In this document: positions 286-55,596 of the stretch, one piece after another
Numbering within the stretch: the stretch's first letter is position 1
Layout: each line of letters opens with the position of its first letter
NCBI GenBank assembly: GCA_016795365.1
Contig: JAEUHN010000040.1
Span: 62,001 to 126,000 of the forward strand
DNA: 64,000 nucleotides
Direction of reading: 5' to 3'
Origin: Verrucomicrobiaceae bacterium
GTDB taxonomy: Bacteria > Verrucomicrobiota > Verrucomicrobiia > Verrucomicrobiales > Verrucomicrobiaceae
Notes under the pieces: model-generated
What the model was told of the DNA's origin: nothing
Seen by the model: the letters and a program-made list of their open reading frames with translations, nothing else
Database searches by the model: none
Made by a program: the position numbers and the translations under genes

Positions 286-3200
286 TCAGCGTGCGTCGAG
301 CTTCACGTAGTCGATGCCGACCATGTAGCTCTTCACCGCCTGCGGGTTGGTGCCCTTGATCGTGAAGGTGAGCTTGTGCTCGCCGACGTTGAGGTCGTGG
401 GTGCCGAGGTCGAGTTCGTCGGTGACGATGACGGCAGGGTAGTTGTAGCCGTCGAAGTCGGTGAGCACAACCTTGCCATCGAGCGCGATGTCACAGATGC
501 CGTAGTCGCGCGCTTTGGTGAGCAACGTCTTCACGGCGAACTTGCCGGCTTTCGCCACGGGCAGCGCGAGTGTGAGCGTGTTGCTGGGCTTCGCGCCGGT
601 CCACCAGAGCTGCGAGCCGCTGCTCCACTTGTTGCCGAAGCCGCCCATGCCTTGCGGACGGGTGCTGCCACCGGTCTTGGACAAGACCGTCATCGTCTCG
701 GCTTCGATCGCGCCTTCGACTTTGATCGCAGGACCACTTCGACCGGTGTCAGCCTTCGCGGGCGTGGCGTTGGTTTGCAGGTAAGCCACGAGCTGGCGGA
801 GCTGCTCCACGGGCAAGGCATCGAACAAGCCCTCGGGCATCGTGCTCACCTTCGACACGGTGCGCTTCTTGATCTCGCTCGTCGTGATCGTCTGCTCCAG
901 ACCACCGGGCATCGCGATGCGCACCGCGCTGGGCGAGTCCTCCTTCACCACGCCGCTGGCCACGCGTCCGTCCTTCAGCTCGAAGATGTTGAGCTGGTAG
1001 TCCTTGCCGATCACGGCGTTGGGATCGAGCACGTTGTCGAGCAAGTAATCGAGGTTACCGCGATTCGAGCCGGTGAGATCGGGGCCGACCTTCTGCCCTT
1101 CGCCAAACATCGCGTGGCACTGGCCGCACACGGCACTGAACAAGACTTTTCCTTTGGCTTTGTCGGCGGCAGCGAGATCGCCCTTCGTGAGCAACGCGCG
1201 GAACTTCTTCTTCCGCTCTTCCAGATCGGCTTTCGGTGCGTTGAGATCGCCGAAGGTGTCCTTCAGCAAGGCGGCCACGTCGGCGTTGTTCAAGGTCGCG
1301 AGCTGTCGCGCGAGGAAAGGCGAGAGCATCGTGCTTGGGATCGTCTTCGCCTTCACGGCGGTGAGCAGCGCCTTCGCACCCGAGGCGGTGGTGGCGAGGG
1401 TGTTGACGGCGTCTTGTTGTTCGATGACATTCATGTTGCCGAAGGTCATCACTAGCCATTTGGCATTGTCCGGGTGCTGGAGAACCGCAAGGCTCTGGAT
1501 AGCGGCCCGCTTGAGAGGTGAACCTGGGCCGGTGCCAGCGAGGATGTCGTGAAGGCCGAATTCCATCATCGTCGGGGTGCTGAACTTGGTCTGGGTGACC
1601 ACTCGAATGGCATTCAGAGCGAGAGGAACGTCGGCACGTTGATGGACGATGATGTCAGCGAAGTGCTGTAGCGTTGCCGTATCGCCCATGAAGGCTTCGA
1701 GTTCGAGTAAAGTCGCTTCGACTTGAGTCGAAGGTTCTTTGGATTCGGCTAAAGCCGAAACCACTTTGGTGCGCAGCGCTGCCCAGTTCTCCGGCTTGCT
1801 GATCTTGTTCCCGGCGCGGGCAGACTTCAGCACGGTCTCGAGCAAGGCATCGCGCATGGCCGCGTCCTTGGTCTCAGCGGCCACCGTGAGCAACCCGGTG
1901 CGTCCCGATTCCTCGGCACCCATGCGACGGTAGATGAACTCGGTGACCTTCGGCATCTTCGACACCTTCGCTAGTTCGAGTCCCGCCTTCGGGTCCGCGC
2001 CGACCAGTGGCTCGATGCCATACCAGATCAGCAACGGGATGTAGGGATCGTCTTTGTCCTCGCCGTGGGCGAGAAGGGCGCGAGCGATGGGGGTGCGCTG
2101 GTCGTTGGGGAGACGCTGGAGCGCGGAGGCCAGTTCGCGGCGGACGATGGGGGAAGGATCGCTCTTCGCCACTTCTGCCATCGCTTTCAATTCACTAGCA
2201 TCAAGGTCGGCGACAACTGCCGTCACGCCTTGGCCAGGTTTCAAAGGGTTTCCCGGGTTGTCGCCAAGAAACACTTCAAACGGCAGTGACAACTGCCGAA
2301 CAGCAGCCACGCGCACTCGTTCGTCCGCATCTTTTAGTTGCTTCCCAACAAGATCGGACGTCCTCGCCACACCGAGTGAGTAGGCGAGCCACATCTTTCT
2401 CAGGCTGGAAGAACCCGACGACAACTCGGCGAGGTCAAAAAGCTTGTTGTTGAGTGCTGTGCCGCGCACAACCCGTTCCATCAATACCCTCCGCGCCTGC
2501 CTTGAGAACCACTCGTTCTCCGTCTGCACGGCGAGCTTGGCGAGGGTCTCGTCGCTTTCCTTGGCGAGATCGAACGGGGCTTTCGGGAAAGGAGCGCGGG
2601 CGCTCTTGCCCGCTTCATTGTTCTTCGCGGCTTCGCCGCCATTTGTTTGAGTGCGGACAGGAGTGTCCGCGCTCCTTTCCACGCCTTCGCTGCCGACGTA
2701 GCTCACCTTGTAGATGCGTCCGTTGCTGCGATCCCAGATCTCCACCGCACCGCTGCCGCGATGGCACACCTGCTTGTCGCTCCAGTCACTGACATACAAG
2801 GAGCCATCGGGACCGACCTTCTGCGTGACAGGAATAAAATTCATGTCGTTGCTGCGCATGAAGTCGCTGCCGTGCTTGCCGATGTAGGTGCTGCCGTGCG
2901 GGTCGAGGTAATCGGTCACGAGGCGGTGGCCGTGCAGGTTGCCGAAGATGAGCCGGTTCCGATAGGTGGCCGGGAACTGGTTGCTCTGATAAATCGCGAG
3001 GCCGCAGTGCGCGTGGCCGCCGCCAGCGGCGTTGGTGTCGTCTTGCACGAGGCTGCCGTGATCGCGACCGCCCCAGTGTGCGTTGTCGCGGATGTTCCCG
3101 GCGTAGTGCGCGTGATCGGCGATGGTTTCGATATCCTCGTAAGTGTAGGGATTGAAGTGCTGCCCGCCCTGCCGGTGATAGCGAGCGCCAGGGACGATGT

Positions 3201-5283
3201 GATACAGATGCGGGATGACGCAGGCGGTGACGAAGAACTCGCCGTTCTGATCATAATCGAGGCCCCAGGGATTCGATGTGCCGTGCGCAAAGACTTCAAA
3301 CACATGCCGCACGGGATGATAGCGCCACACACCCGCATTCATGAGCGTGCGCTGCTCGTCGGGCGTGCCAGGCTTGCCGATCTTGGAATGCGTGAAGACG
3401 CCGTGGCAGCCGTAGAGCCAGCCATCGGGTCCCCAGAGGAAGGAGTTCAGCGTCTCGTGCGTGTCCTGCGTGCCGAAGCCGTCGAGGAGGGCGTAGGCGG
3501 TGAAGCTGAGGCCGGGGACTTTGGTCAAGGCAGTCAAGTTGGTCAAGATTGGGGTCAAGTCTTGCTTCGAGGCACCCTTGACCTCTTGACCCTTTGACTC
3601 CTTGACCAAGCCTACCGGCTTGTCCCCATCTCTCGGAATGAACATCAAATACGGAGCCGCGCCGATCCACACACCGCCGAAGCCAACCTCGATGCCACTC
3701 GCGAGATTGAGGCCTTCGCAGAAGGTCTTCTTTGTCTCGTAGGTGCCGTCGCCGTCGCTGTCTTCGAGGATGCGGATGCGATCCTTTCCGGCGCCGACTT
3801 CGCGGGGCTGCGGGTAGCTGTTGCCCTCGACAACCCAGAGGCGACCACGCTCGTCGAAGCAGAAGGCAATCGGTTGCACGATGTCGGGCTCGGCGGCGAT
3901 GAGGTCGGCTTTGAAGCCGGTGGGGAGTTGCAGGTTCTTCAGCGCGTCTTGCGGCGGCTGGCCGCGGGCATATTCGATCTGCGGCTTCAAGCCGGGGCCA
4001 TACATCTTCACGGGCTTCGCCTCGGCGGTCGAGTCGGTGCGCTTTTGCGTGAGGATGAAGACGCCGCTTTTGTTCGCGGAGACGATGTCGGGCAGGCCAT
4101 CACCGTTCACATCGCCCACGGTGACATCGACGCCGACGCTGCTGACGGTATCGACGAGGTGCGGGATGAAATCGACGCCGCCCTTGCCATCGCGCTTCGT
4201 CTCATACCAATAGACCACACGCGCACCGCGCTCGTCGGGATCGTGGCCGTTGTGCGCCCAGTAGCGTTTGCCGGTGACGATGTCCTGGATGCCGTCGCCA
4301 TTGATGTCTGCAAGTGCTGCAGCATGAGGCTGGGAGAAGACGATGCCGTAGTCGTTGTCGGCGGGGTTCTCGCTGGCGAGCATGACTTGCTTCCAGTTGG
4401 GCAGAGGAGCGCGGGCACTCTTGCCCGCATCGTCATGCTTCGCGGCTTCGCCGCCAGGATCAGAAGAGCGGACAGGAGTGTCCGCGCTCCCTTGTGGCTT
4501 GTTCTGCAAATACACCGCCACACCATAGCGATGTGCCTGCAGACTCGTGAAGACATCGTTGGTGCCGTTGCCGTCGAAATCATACGCGAACATCTGTGCG
4601 CCACCGCCGACACCGGCGGCGAAGTTGTGCTGCTCCCAGAGGCCGCTGTCCTTGTGCTCCCACCAGCGACGTGCTTCGAGGAGGTCGAGTTTCCCATCGC
4701 CATTCACATCGCCGACACCGAGGCCGTGCGTGAACTTCGCCACCTTCATGTCCTCACTGACGGCTACGAACGGCCACTTCTCGGTCGGCTTGTCCCAGTT
4801 CGGTGCGAACCAGCCGAACTTGCCGCCCGTGCTGCACACGATCTCCGGTTTGCCATCGCCGGTGATGTCGGTGAAGACGGGCGACTCGTTGTCCACCACG
4901 TCGGCGACGATGCTCATCGGCCACGGCTTGTCGTCGTGAACGCCGGAGTTCAGGTAGAGCCGCGCTTCTTTGCCAGGGAAGCCAAGGATGAGGATGTCGT
5001 TCTTCTTGTCGCCGTTGAAGTCATGGACGTAGGCGAAGAAGTTGTCCGAGTAGCCATTGATGCTGAAGATCTTCGGCTCGTAGTAGGCGTGCTTCTTTTC
5101 AAAGGCGGGGCCTTCCCACCAGAATGGACCCGCCACGATGTCGGGCTTGCCGTCGCCATTGATGTCGCCAATCGCCGCGCCCTCGGAGTAAAAGTCGCCG
5201 TGGAGCTGCTTGCGTTCCCAGGTGATCTGGGTGGCCGCGTGCAGCGAGGTGGCCGCGAAGACTAGAGCGAGGAGAACTTTCAT
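286..5283 (-). CDS. Giant secreted PVC-type cytochrome c dehydrogenase with FG-GAP, HEAT and C-terminal carbohydrate-binding-like region
   Basis: 1665 residues from the ATG at 5283, which gives a clean signal peptide (MKVLLALVFAATSLHAA); a TTG five codons upstream is less likely. Order of parts: signal peptide; FG-GAP/VCBS propeller with many DINGDGKPD-type calcium loops (about 20-440); PVC-type beta-propeller dehydrogenase (about 450-850, with FDERGRLWVVE and DSDGDGTYE); HEAT-like helices (about 900-1330); one c-type heme site CGQCH near residue 1385 with GPDLTGS after it; and a C-terminal beta domain beginning IEAETM, resembling a carbohydrate-binding module. Such proteins are exported in Planctomycetes and Verrucomicrobia. 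Oxidation of a sugar or polysaccharide is inferred and the substrate is unknown. The frame is interrupted by several translated palindromic repeats, described separately at 1709, 2209, 2588, 3521 and 4403. There is no operon partner. Confidence 0.88.
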   Translation of the reverse strand: MKVLLALVFAATSLHAATQITWERKQLHGDFYSEGAAIGDINGDGKPDIVAGPFWWEGPAFEKKHAYYEPKIFSINGYSDNFFAYVHDFNGDKKNDILILGFPGKEARLYLNSGVHDDKPWPMSIVADVVDNESPVFTDITGDGKPEIVCSTGGKFGWFAPNWDKPTEKWPFVAVSEDMKVAKFTHGLGVGDVNGDGKLDLLEARRWWEHKDSGLWEQHNFAAGVGGGAQMFAYDFDGNGTNDVFTSLQAHRYGVAVYLQNKPQGSADTPVRSSDPGGEAAKHDDAGKSARAPLPNWKQVMLASENPADNDYGIVFSQPHAAALADINGDGIQDIVTGKRYWAHNGHDPDERGARVVYWYETKRDGKGGVDFIPHLVDTVSSVGVDVTVGDVNGDGLPDIVSANKSGVFILTQKRTDSTAEAKPVKMYGPGLKPQIEYARGQPPQDALKNLQLPTGFKADLIAAEPDIVQPIAFCFDERGRLWVVEGNSYPQPREVGAGKDRIRILEDSDGDGTYETKKTFCEGLNLASGIEVGFGGVWIGAAPYLMFIPRDGDKPVGLVKESKGQEVKGASKQDLTPILTNLTALTKVPGLSFTAYALLDGFGTQDTHETLNSFLWGPDGWLYGCHGVFTHSKIGKPGTPDEQRTLMNAGVWRYHPVRHVFEVFAHGTSNPWGLDYDQNGEFFVTACVIPHLYHIVPGARYHRQGGQHFNPYTYEDIETIADHAHYAGNIRDNAHWGGRDHGSLVQDDTNAAGGGHAHCGLAIYQSNQFPATYRNRLIFGNLHGHRLVTDYLDPHGSTYIGKHGSDFMRSNDMNFIPVTQKVGPDGSLYVSDWSDKQVCHRGSGAVEIWDRSNGRIYKVSYVGSEGVERSADTPVRTQTNGGEAAKNNEAGKSARAPFPKAPFDLAKESDETLAKLAVQTENEWFSRQARRVLMERVVRGTALNNKLFDLAELSSGSSSLRKMWLAYSLGVARTSDLVGKQLKDADERVRVAAVRQLSLPFEVFLGDNPGNPLKPGQGVTAVVADLDASELKAMAEVAKSDPSPIVRRELASALQRLPNDQRTPIARALLAHGEDKDDPYIPLLIWYGIEPLVGADPKAGLELAKVSKMPKVTEFIYRRMGAEESGRTGLLTVAAETKDAAMRDALLETVLKSARAGNKISKPENWAALRTKVVSALAESKEPSTQVEATLLELEAFMGDTATLQHFADIIVHQRADVPLALNAIRVVTQTKFSTPTMMEFGLHDILAGTGPGSPLKRAAIQSLAVLQHPDNAKWLVMTFGNMNVIEQQDAVNTLATTASGAKALLTAVKAKTIPSTMLSPFLARQLATLNNADVAALLKDTFGDLNAPKADLEERKKKFRALLTKGDLAAADKAKGKVLFSAVCGQCHAMFGEGQKVGPDLTGSNRGNLDYLLDNVLDPNAVIGKDYQLNIFELKDGRVASGVVKEDSPSAVRIAMPGGLEQTITTSEIKKRTVSKVSTMPEGLFDALPVEQLRQLVAYLQTNATPAKADTGRSGPAIKVEGAIEAETMTVLSKTGGSTRPQGMGGFGNKWSSGSQLWWTGAKPSNTLTLALPVAKAGKFAVKTLLTKARDYGICDIALDGKVVLTDFDGYNYPAVIVTDELDLGTHDLNVGEHKLTFTIKGTNPQAVKSYMVGIDYVKLDAR
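1709..1767. repeat. 59-bp intragenic palindromic element, family 2 (copy 1)
   Basis: Two adjacent hairpins lie within matching outer ends: CTTCGACT/AGTCGAAG (1716-1733) and TTCGGCT/AGCCGAA (1744-1759), bounded by AAAGT and ACTTT. Read in the host frame it encodes KVVSALAESKEPSTQVEATL. A second copy of exactly the same length lies at 27914-27972; by hand alignment about 46 of 59 bases agree. Confidence 0.8.
2209..2298. repeat. Candidate intragenic palindromic insertion, single copy
   Basis: An 8-bp perfect inverted repeat GGCGACAA/TTGTCGCC (2209-2216 and 2258-2265), a 7-bp hairpin CGGCAGT/ACTGCCG (2281-2298) and an 11-bp direct repeat GACAACTGCCG (2212 and 2288) fall together in the HEAT region. 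The encoded stretch (VFLGDNPGNPLKPGQG) looks unlike neighbouring HEAT helices. Only one copy is seen, so calling it an insertion is an inference. Confidence 0.45.
2588..2678. repeat. 91-bp three-hairpin palindromic element, family 1 (copy A)
   Basis: Outer 26-bp arms (2588-2613 and 2653-2678) are inverted copies agreeing at 22 of 26 bases. Each arm folds on itself (for example GCGGACA/TGTCCGC) and a GCGGC-TTC-GCCGC hairpin sits exactly at the centre (2627-2639). It is translated in the host gene with the peptides SADTPVR, GGEAAK and AGKSARAP. Copies B (4403-4493) and C (27515-27606) share length and architecture. Confidence 0.9.
3521..3609. repeat. 89-bp intragenic palindrome built of GGTCAAG units, family 3
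   Basis: On the + strand four (G)GTCAAG-type units (3523, 3532, 3541, 3553) face four CTTGACC-type units (3577, 3585, 3593, 3601). The ends are a perfect 10-bp inverted repeat TTGGTCAAGG/CCTTGACCAA. It is read through in frame inside the propeller dehydrogenase domain, giving a Lys/Leu/Thr-rich linker. Confidence 0.8.
4403..4493. repeat. 91-bp three-hairpin palindromic element, family 1 (copy B)
   Basis: Same length and symmetry as copy A, with arms 4403-4428 and 4468-4493 and the central GCGGC-TTC-GCCGC hairpin at 4442-4454. It has the same orientation and the same encoded peptide pattern (SADTPVR, GGEAAK, AGKSARAP). It lies in the FG-GAP propeller region, about residues 263-293. Confidence 0.9.
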
Positions 5284-5436
5284 GGTGGTGGGATGCAAAC
5301 GCTATCAGACGTGGGCAGCATCAGACAAGATTTGTGTCTAATCTGACAGCAGCCTTCGTGGGGCAGGACTAGCGATGTTATGCCCACAAATAATGCACTA
5401 CCAAGCGAGGCAAGTTACGCCACCGGATGTCATCTG

Positions 5437-15049: not shown

Positions 15050-15156
15050 CAGGATGAGCAGGATGTCTCATGATCGACAGGATGACTTTGCGCCCGAAAT
15101 CTATAATTCAGCCGAGGTGTGAGTCCTGATGATCCTGAAAATATCCTGACATCCTG
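15050..15156. repeat. Intergenic palindrome of CAGGATG units
   Basis: Three CAGGATG units (15050, 15059, 15078) face inverted (A)TCCTG units (15124, 15132, 15143, 15151), at about 8-11 bp spacing, separated by AT-richer sequence. It lies between the dsbD start and the rluA-type stop codon. Nothing else is recognised in this 279-bp gap. Confidence 0.65.
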
Positions 15157-17404: not shown

Positions 17405-17479
17405 TCTTACTCATACTCTGCCTCCTACTCTTACTCGTCGGCGAAGGGTCCTGCGGCGTCGAGTATGAGTAAGAGTAGG
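17405..17479. repeat. Intergenic palindrome of TACTC/GAGTA units
   Basis: CTTACTCATACTC and CCTACTCTTACTC on the left (17406-17436) face GAGTATGAGTAAGAGTAGG on the right (17461-17479). It fills much of the 221-bp gap between fabV and a glycosyltransferase. It could act as a weak terminator but lacks a T-run. Confidence 0.65.
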
Positions 17480-17529
17480 CCTGAAGCGTTTGGAGCGTCA
17501 CTGCGTGGCAGAGACTTCATCAGGACTCG

Positions 17530-50232: not shown

Positions 50233-50928
50233 TCATCCTTCCCCAAGCATGTAGCCCTTGCCACGCACGGTCAGCAGAATACGCGGCGCGGAAGCATCAT
50301 CGCGCAGCTTCGAGCGCAGGTTGGCGATGTGCATGTCGATGGTGCGCGTCTCGGTTTGATGAGGTTCGATGCGCCACACGCGACGTAGCAATTCATCGCG
50401 AGCGATGGCCCGGCCACGATGCGCCGCGAGGTATTGAATCAACTGCACCTCACGCTCCGAAAGCTCCGTGCGGGTGCCGTCTTGAAAGCGCAGCTCCAGC
50501 CGCGCGAAGTCCGCCACGCCGCCCTCGAAGGGCAGCTCCTTCACCGGAGCCGGGCGCTCGGGCGTGCGCCGCAGCACCGCCTCCACGCGCGCCAGCAGCT
50601 CGCGCACGCTGAAGGGCTTCACCACATAATCATCGGCCCCGAGCTTCAAGCCCTTCACCCGATCCGCCTCCTCGCCGCGCGCTGACAAGATGATCACCGG
50701 CGTGCCCGGACGATGCTCCTTCAGCGCGGCGAGGATCTCGAAGCCTGAGAAATTCGGCAGCACCAGATCGAGCAGCAGCAGGTCAAAGGTGGCCCGCAGC
50801 GCGGTCTCCATCCCGGTCTTCCCCTCGCCCGCCTCGATCACCTCGAAGCCCGAGAACCGCAACGCATCCACCACCCCGCGACGGATGGAGCTGTCGTCTT
50901 CAATCACAAGGATGGTGCGTGAGGTCAT
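50233..50928 (-). CDS. OmpR/PhoB family response regulator
   Basis: 231 residues. The receiver domain has the acidic pair D11/D12, phosphoacceptor D54 (LLLLDLVLP), and K104 (DDYVVKPFS). The C-terminal winged helix shows LSEREVQLIQYLAAHRGRAI and RTIDMHIANLRSKL. It is cotranscribed with the sensor kinase 32 bp downstream and should act as its DNA-binding partner. Upstream lies a palindromic repeat, then a VWA gene in the same direction. Confidence 0.95.
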   Translation of the reverse strand: MTSRTILVIEDDSSIRRGVVDALRFSGFEVIEAGEGKTGMETALRATFDLLLLDLVLPNFSGFEILAALKEHRPGTPVIILSARGEEADRVKGLKLGADDYVVKPFSVRELLARVEAVLRRTPERPAPVKELPFEGGVADFARLELRFQDGTRTELSEREVQLIQYLAAHRGRAIARDELLRRVWRIEPHQTETRTIDMHIANLRSKLRDDASAPRILLTVRGKGYMLGEG

Positions 50929-50936
50929 GTCTGGCG

Positions 50937-51040
50937 AAAAGCTAAGAGCTTAGAGCGAAGAGTGTAAACCCGGGATTCGAGAGCTGCGGGTGCGAACGAA
51001 GGATGCCAACCATCTCTTCGCTCCACGCCCTTAGCTCTTT
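50937..51040. repeat. Intergenic inverted repeat of TAAGAGC/GAGCGAAGAG units
   Basis: A 26-bp left arm (50937-50962) containing AGCTAAGAGCTTAGAGCG and a 27-bp right arm (51014-51040) are imperfect inverted copies around a 51-bp centre. It fills the gap between the VWA gene and the response regulator gene, so a shared transcript would carry a large hairpin. Confidence 0.65.
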
Positions 51041-51048
51041 GCTTGAAC

Positions 51049-55255: not shown

Positions 55256-55398
55256 GGCGCTGGCTATAGCGGCAGCGACGGCGGGTTTCAAAGGGAAAGC
55301 CGGGGGTGCGGAGTTGTAGCCCGCCCCATTAAGGTGGGACCTGAGGCGCTTCCTTCTCGTGCCACACCTTCGTTGGGGAAGCGCTGAACCATGTTTTT

Positions 55399-55496
55399 GA
55401 ACCACTAATGCACACGGATAGACACTAATAATCCCTGACGAGGAAAGGCATTCTGACACTTCATTATTAGTGTGGATGAGTGTCCATTAGTGGTTC
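55399..55496. repeat. 34-bp inverted repeat with CACTAAT units
   Basis: Left arm 55399-55432 (GAACCACTAATG at its outer end, ACTAATAAT inside) and right arm 55463-55496 (ATTATTAGTG inside, CATTAGTGGTTC outside) are near-complete inverted copies around a 30-bp loop. It is markedly more AT-rich than its surroundings. Related CACTAATG repeats occur in intergenic DNA of many bacteria. Confidence 0.75.
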
Positions 55497-55596
55497 AGCA
55501 GCTTCAATCAGCGCCTCCCTAGCTATGACGCGCAGCACCTCGCCGTGACGAAACGCTGCGTCTCCCACCTCGCTGAGGTCGGCTGCAACCATCATC

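Follow-up and report, generated by a model that had tools for sequence, protein, structure and literature searches.

The stretch of DNA considered here (the window: 64,000 nt of contig C10 in the 6.74 Mb genome, G000, of a Verrucomicrobiaceae bacterium) contains, inside a protein gene, an array of a short word facing its own inverse. The host open reading frame (ORF; 286..5298, minus strand, 1670 aa) encodes FG-GAP repeats, DUF7133, a cytochrome c domain and a CGQCH motif, and the array lies in frame within it, beginning at about residue 563. Read on the plus strand, the 5′ arm (3524..3559) has four GTCAAG units, at 3524, 3533, 3542 and 3554, separated in order by the linkers GCA, TTG and ATTGGG. 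A loop (3560..3576), read directly from the sequence and from the fold, separates it from the 3′ arm (3577..3606, plus strand), where CTTGAC stands at 3577, 3585 and 3601 and the degenerate TTTGAC at 3593. The initial annotation of this DNA had placed the palindrome in the frame of the gene and given it perfect 10-bp ends, and both statements are borne out, the ends being TTGGTCAAGG at 3521..3530 and CCTTGACCAA at 3600..3609 (plus strand). Its count of four units facing four is exact for the 5′ arm, while the 3′ arm has three CTTGAC and the one degenerate unit.

Folded as DNA, the 100-nt stretch that holds the array forms a single strong hairpin at −28.2 kcal/mol; dinucleotide shuffles average −12.25 (z −6.3), and none of 200 equals it. 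A known RNA family was considered and discarded, there being no match within the window to Rfam 15 at gathering score. The host gene also has a second intragenic repeat, of conserved sequence: on the minus strand an in-frame segment of 27 residues (ADTPVR..GGEAAK..GKSARAP) occurs twice, at 4405-4485 and 2590-2670 of the window, and both copies start with GCGGACACTCCTGTCCGC.

Within its own genome no other opposed GTCAAG array was found. A whole-genome search found no second match to the full palindrome, and GTCAAG triples (gaps up to 6) are at control level, 5 against 6 for the same pattern read backwards, a control that gives mostly 0-2 per genome and at most 7. Among relatives, in contrast, triples are present in 41 of the 68 genomes of the family, with 119 in G012, 93 in G045, 74 in G042, 39 in G052 and 26 in G034, and GTCAAG arrays are at home in the related genus g8, probably Prosthecobacter, where triples reach tens per genome. 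The additional opposed GTCAAG arrays that the initial annotation anticipated are thus a matter of the relatives and not of the genome from which the window comes. A search of 387 genomes of the phylum for opposed GTCAAG arrays matched G000 alone, but the fixed-spacer pattern employed catches just 2 of the 9 opposed elements in the G045 sample, so that absence elsewhere in the phylum carries little weight.

Triples are not all of one kind. In G012 and G013 many are plain 8-nt tandems, and contigs of these genomes (for example L114 at 9322 and L116 at 6778) have long tandem runs of GTCAAGAG or GTCAAGGG, of up to 25 units; some runs in G013 begin a few bases from a contig start (C25, C29) and may break assemblies. 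Most of the triples viewed in G045 are opposed arrays, with 3-5 GTCAAG, a loop and 2-4 CTTGAC, in which the cores are perfect, the linkers diverse (47 distinct among 61) and the loops variable from one element viewed to another. The intergenic elements mostly lie from a few to some tens of bases from gene ends, in all gene orientations, as judged from mechanical ORF calls. A reading as terminators was rejected, elements being found also between divergent genes. Isolated GTCAAG is depleted rather than enriched (39 occurrences in the G045 sample where 109 are expected, and 88 in G000 where 218 are), which also disposes of the array words as singly scattered signals; the similar depletion in G000, which is without the GTCAAG family, means that the depletion is not tied to the arrays.

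The same design is written in other words. A word-blind detector, calling a hexamer that occurs at least twice and is then followed by its reverse complement at least twice, finds 5 arrays in 428,775 bases of G000, that of the window included, and none in shuffled sequence (one shuffle per piece). Four further palindromes of the window, at 15050, 17405, 50937 and 55399, had been said to share the design of the in-gene array. Two of them are met by the detector, with cores CAGGAT (15050..15156, 3+3) and CACTAA (55403..55492, 2+2), whereas for the other two, of TACTC/GAGTA words (17405..17480) and of AAGAGC/GCTCTT words (50937..51045), both outside the detector's reach, the likeness is by eye; none of the four is assigned a strand. 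Around the CACTAA array, about 276 nt at window positions ~55315-55590 correspond to 18 nt in G003, of the same genus, between flanks that are 93% identical. A stretch of 100-140 nt at window positions ~50563-50701 is repeated elsewhere in G000 and in G003 at about 75% identity and is an ordinary dispersed repeat.

In 1,756,327 non-redundant bases of related DNA (loci sharing more than 20% of sampled 40-mers with earlier loci having been removed) the detector counts 53 opposed arrays, where shuffled sequence yields 1. The figure gives no densities, since the loci were picked partly for GTCAAG arrays, Y1 genes or the window gene. The words include GTCAAG, CAGGAT, CACTAAT, AATGACGA, CACAGAG, TGGAGT, ATGAAG, CGAATG and GACGCT; the GTCAAG/GGTCAA words account for 24 of the 53 arrays, and certain word families represent a single repeat in shifted register. 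In layout, members of the class have several copies of a core of about 6 nt spaced by unconstrained linkers (2-6 nt), then a short loop, then the inverted cores, and the purine-rich arm is nearly always 5′.

This polarity deserves separate attention. All 24 distinct opposed GTCAAG elements (three orthologs of the window gene and three from one syntenic site among them) have GTCAAG 5′ and CTTGAC 3′, and none has the reverse. The reversed order, with CTTGAC first, would pair equally well. Every hexamer with at least three elements has a single polarity, the 5′ arm is purine-richer than the 3′ arm in 48 of the 53 arrays, and counted by word the purine-richer arm comes first in 16 of 20. Register-shifted words and the share of GTCAAG/GGTCAA arrays mean that the 48 of 53 are not independent observations. 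In the same DNA, 127 ordinary hairpins with perfect 11-bp arms, arrays excluded, have the purine-richer arm first in 63 cases against 64. The polarity is not expected from a simple local origin of each hairpin. Taken together, the many words sharing one design at a level far above shuffles, and a polarity that ordinary hairpins lack, make the common generating mechanism with different units, which had been offered as a hint, more than one. A linked RAYT-like (REP-associated tyrosine transposase; REP, repetitive extragenic palindrome) gene, which the initial annotation suggested looking for, is not supported. The term 'family' suits the core word and polarity that copies have in common, and not their linkers and loops.

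Arrays are rewritten in place, as is seen where syntenic sites are compared. Five places were followed, all chosen from G045, in the relatives G052, G042 and G034. At the first (L108), whose flanks are 92-94% identical between G045 and G052, the GTCAAG cores are kept while the unit number and linkers have changed, and the array is shorter in G042 and missing from G034. Between its innermost cores, L108 has a loop that is inverted relative to that of its G052 counterpart, L257 (14 of 18 positions agree when inverted, 1 of 18 when direct; 0 of 100,000 shuffles do as well). Template switching between inverted repeats, as described in PMC8604942 and PMC8794818, yields both arm homogenisation and spacer inversion. 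An inverted loop between flanks that keep their orientation, the mark of a quasipalindrome event, was found in this one case; an apparent inversion between L035 and L282 was discounted, the two loci probably lying in opposite orientation. At a second place (L102b) the left arm is GTCAAG three times in G045 and GGCAAG, GCCAAG, GCCAAG in G052, with the right arm nearly alike and the direction of change not polarised, and the array is absent from G042 and G034. At a third, intergenic place (L102a, L102 8642-8740), G045 has a GTCAAG array where its close relative G052 (L251) has palindromic-looking sequence of another kind. Site 1 of L098 has arrays in G045 and G042 that differ in units and linkers, a decayed one in G034, and in G052 the first unit followed by another palindromic-looking sequence. 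At site 2 of L098, 3-5 CTTGAC units run in one direction only in G045 and G042; the array is partly decayed in G034 and absent from G052. At none of the five was a clean empty site with a target-site duplication found. To go from these five places to a general mechanism would be an inference.

The site of the array within the DUF7133 gene has a history of its own, and the homologous loop was extracted from 63 orthologs. It is absent in 8 of them, and a tree from which the loop was left out groups these as a single clade (100/100). With those eight (<50 nt) excluded, 17 of the remaining 55 loops have a word-repetition score reached by at most 22 of 500 shuffles. Loop words for which at most 9 of 500 shuffles are as repetitive are GTCAAG (G000, G045, G054), CAGATC (G003, of the same genus as G000), AAAATC, GATCAG, TCCTCT, GGGCCA, CCATCT and ATAGGA/T, that is at least seven words besides GTCAAG at the same codon site; many orthologs have ordinary, non-repetitive sequence there. 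Twelve loop classes, labelled by eye, require 28 changes on a tree of the 61 of 63 orthologs for which both flanks were found and were long enough (minimum 11, shuffled mean 38.3), and the GTCAAG class three changes, two of them forced by starred branches. Between G000 and either G045 or G054, identity is 90-93% in the GTCAAG array and 76-84% in the 300-nt flanks; G003, the same-genus sister of G000, has a different array at the site. An array more alike than its flanks would fit exchange of the loop between lineages. The array occupies an in-frame loop that outgroups lack and that is probably dispensable, and the in-gene copy looks like a passenger tolerated there, probably exchanged horizontally. 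With the loop occupied by different arrays across lineages, and the same array in lineages that are not sisters, the copy probably either came in from Prosthecobacter, the genus in which GTCAAG is the multi-copy word, or goes back to common descent with it.

What could make and remake such elements? The proposal favored here, for and against which the balance is about even, is that the window feature belongs to a class of polar opposed short-unit arrays rewritten by template switching and slippage. When the element is single-stranded DNA, core would fold against core, and in replication template switching between the arms, together with slippage along them, would keep rewriting it. Such rewriting would homogenise the cores, alter the number of units, let the linkers drift and sometimes invert the loop, with the outcome that copies would soon be alike in core and polarity only. 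The simplest guess as to what founds arrays and imposes their polarity would be some process that works on single-stranded hairpins with the purine-rich arm first.

Several points weigh against this proposal. Template switching alone is blind to polarity, and it does not account for the occurrence of a single word at tens of sites in a genome. The syntenic sites are five, all taken from G045, and at one the G052 sequence is a different one and not a rewritten array. Linkers coincide in 25 pairs where 13.2 are expected, a slight excess reached in 12 of 1000 resamplings (orthologs included) and a hint of copying. Judged for recombination by longest identical runs, G000 and G045 share their longest stretch in the window gene outside the array (41 nt against 37 at the array), which leaves room for old shared descent with loss elsewhere and stops short of proving import. 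The loop word TCCTAT has no dispersed opposed array in the 68 genomes with the pattern used, so the loop words do not all have a demonstrated dispersed family behind them.

A bolder reading, less likely than not, is of a polar, word-agnostic hairpin writer, either an enzyme or a single-strand process, making opposed arrays from any short core with the purine-rich arm first. It would act at permissive sites between and within genes, and would leave different words at one site in different species.

Unlikely is an element akin to a REP or to a miniature inverted-repeat transposable element (MITE), mobilised in trans by a transposase that recognises the core, Y1/RAYT or other, with linkers that diverged after insertion. 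The tens of dispersed copies in some genomes would suit it, as would a fixed polarity resembling inward-facing transposon ends and the abundance of Y1 transposases, present in 67 of the 68 family genomes with up to 39 genes in one. Yet copies with common linkers and loops, which it would lead one to look for, are not seen, given the diversity of linkers described above. Among 40 Y1 loci, which represent some of the family's Y1 hits, not one bears a GTCAAG array; a CACAGA array lies about 1 kb from one of them, and at two there are weak matches that probably belong to coding sequence. Searches with six Y1 proteins gave no match to the window or to 20 array loci, and the linked transposase or RAYT-like gene for which the initial annotation had suggested a search did not come to light. 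The REP tags GTAG and CGTC, sought within 12 nt outside the arrays, adjoin 3 and 2 of 24 elements respectively, with about 1.7 expected for each, and so are not above chance. As for MITEs, the window copy does have perfect 10-bp ends, while the five syntenic sites offer no clean empty site with a target duplication.

Less probable still, and to be doubted, is that a DNA- or RNA-binding protein recognises the cores, in a nucleoid, regulatory, RNA-stability or termination role, and that selection preserves both core and pairing but leaves the linkers free to drift. Cores that stay perfect despite linker change, at L108 and at L098 site 1 (G042), speak for it, as do the fixed polarity and the depletion of isolated GTCAAG, as though the word were reserved for arrays. 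That depletion is, however, equal in G000 without the GTCAAG family, and elements lie alike between divergent, convergent and co-directional genes, with one inside coding sequence. Many words of one design coexist in a single genome, and the array has been lost at some syntenic sites. Ordinary slippage, which would need no special generator and would produce tandem repeats where the loop accepts hydrophilic residues, has in its favor the plain 8-nt tandems of G012 and G013 and the permissiveness of a loop site where many orthologs have non-repetitive sequence, but is improbable, as slippage makes no inverted arms and the 53 opposed arrays, against the 1 in shuffles, have a single polarity.

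Rickettsia palindromic elements (RPEs) are copies of a consensus belonging to their own genus. As told in PMC3733652, they are likewise palindromes in frame in protein genes. The comparison that lies nearest is with the GTAG- and CGTC-tagged REPs that the same source describes in Verrucomicrobia, small dispersed DNA palindromes that are mostly intergenic and in some cases in frame in genes, with intragenic copies in Opitutus terrae among others. In that description a tagged REP carries GTAG or CGTC at one end, forms a single stem of 5-13 bp and follows a consensus shared by its family, loop included. Unlike them, the arrays have several repeated cores, free linkers and loop, and a variable number of units; no consensus over stem and loop emerges, with 47 of 61 linkers distinct and loops differing among the elements viewed. 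The arrays are distinct from tagged REPs, there being no tag, no consensus loop and no linked transposase found. With the units of RAYT genes described in PMC2817692 the family shares Y1-type genes in 67 of 68 genomes, and differs from the arrangement of RAYT genes and REPINs in that no Y1 gene among the 40 loci is flanked by GTCAAG arrays. Arm homogenisation and loop inversion are held in common with template-switched quasipalindromes, but the cases described in PMC8604942 and PMC8794818 are single stems at single loci, and here cores are repeated and dispersed with a purine-first polarity. Intrastrand triplex motifs in bacteria (PMC4666352) are likewise abundant repeats with purine-rich and pyrimidine-rich stems; the motif TMECO, as presented there, has three homo-tract stems with the pyrimidine stem first, in place of two arms of a mixed word. 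A class of opposed short-unit arrays was not found in the literature searched, and its absence from print is to be taken within the limits of those searches.

Should the purine-first polarity of arrays in diverse words prove general, it would be a clear, countable mark left on bacterial DNA hairpins by a polar process that the present categories of tagged REPs, MITEs and tandem repeats leave uncovered. A single protein loop that has accepted many alternative arrays would provide a natural test bed for the birth, rewriting and exchange of such elements, and also for the entry of new peptide segments into a conserved protein.

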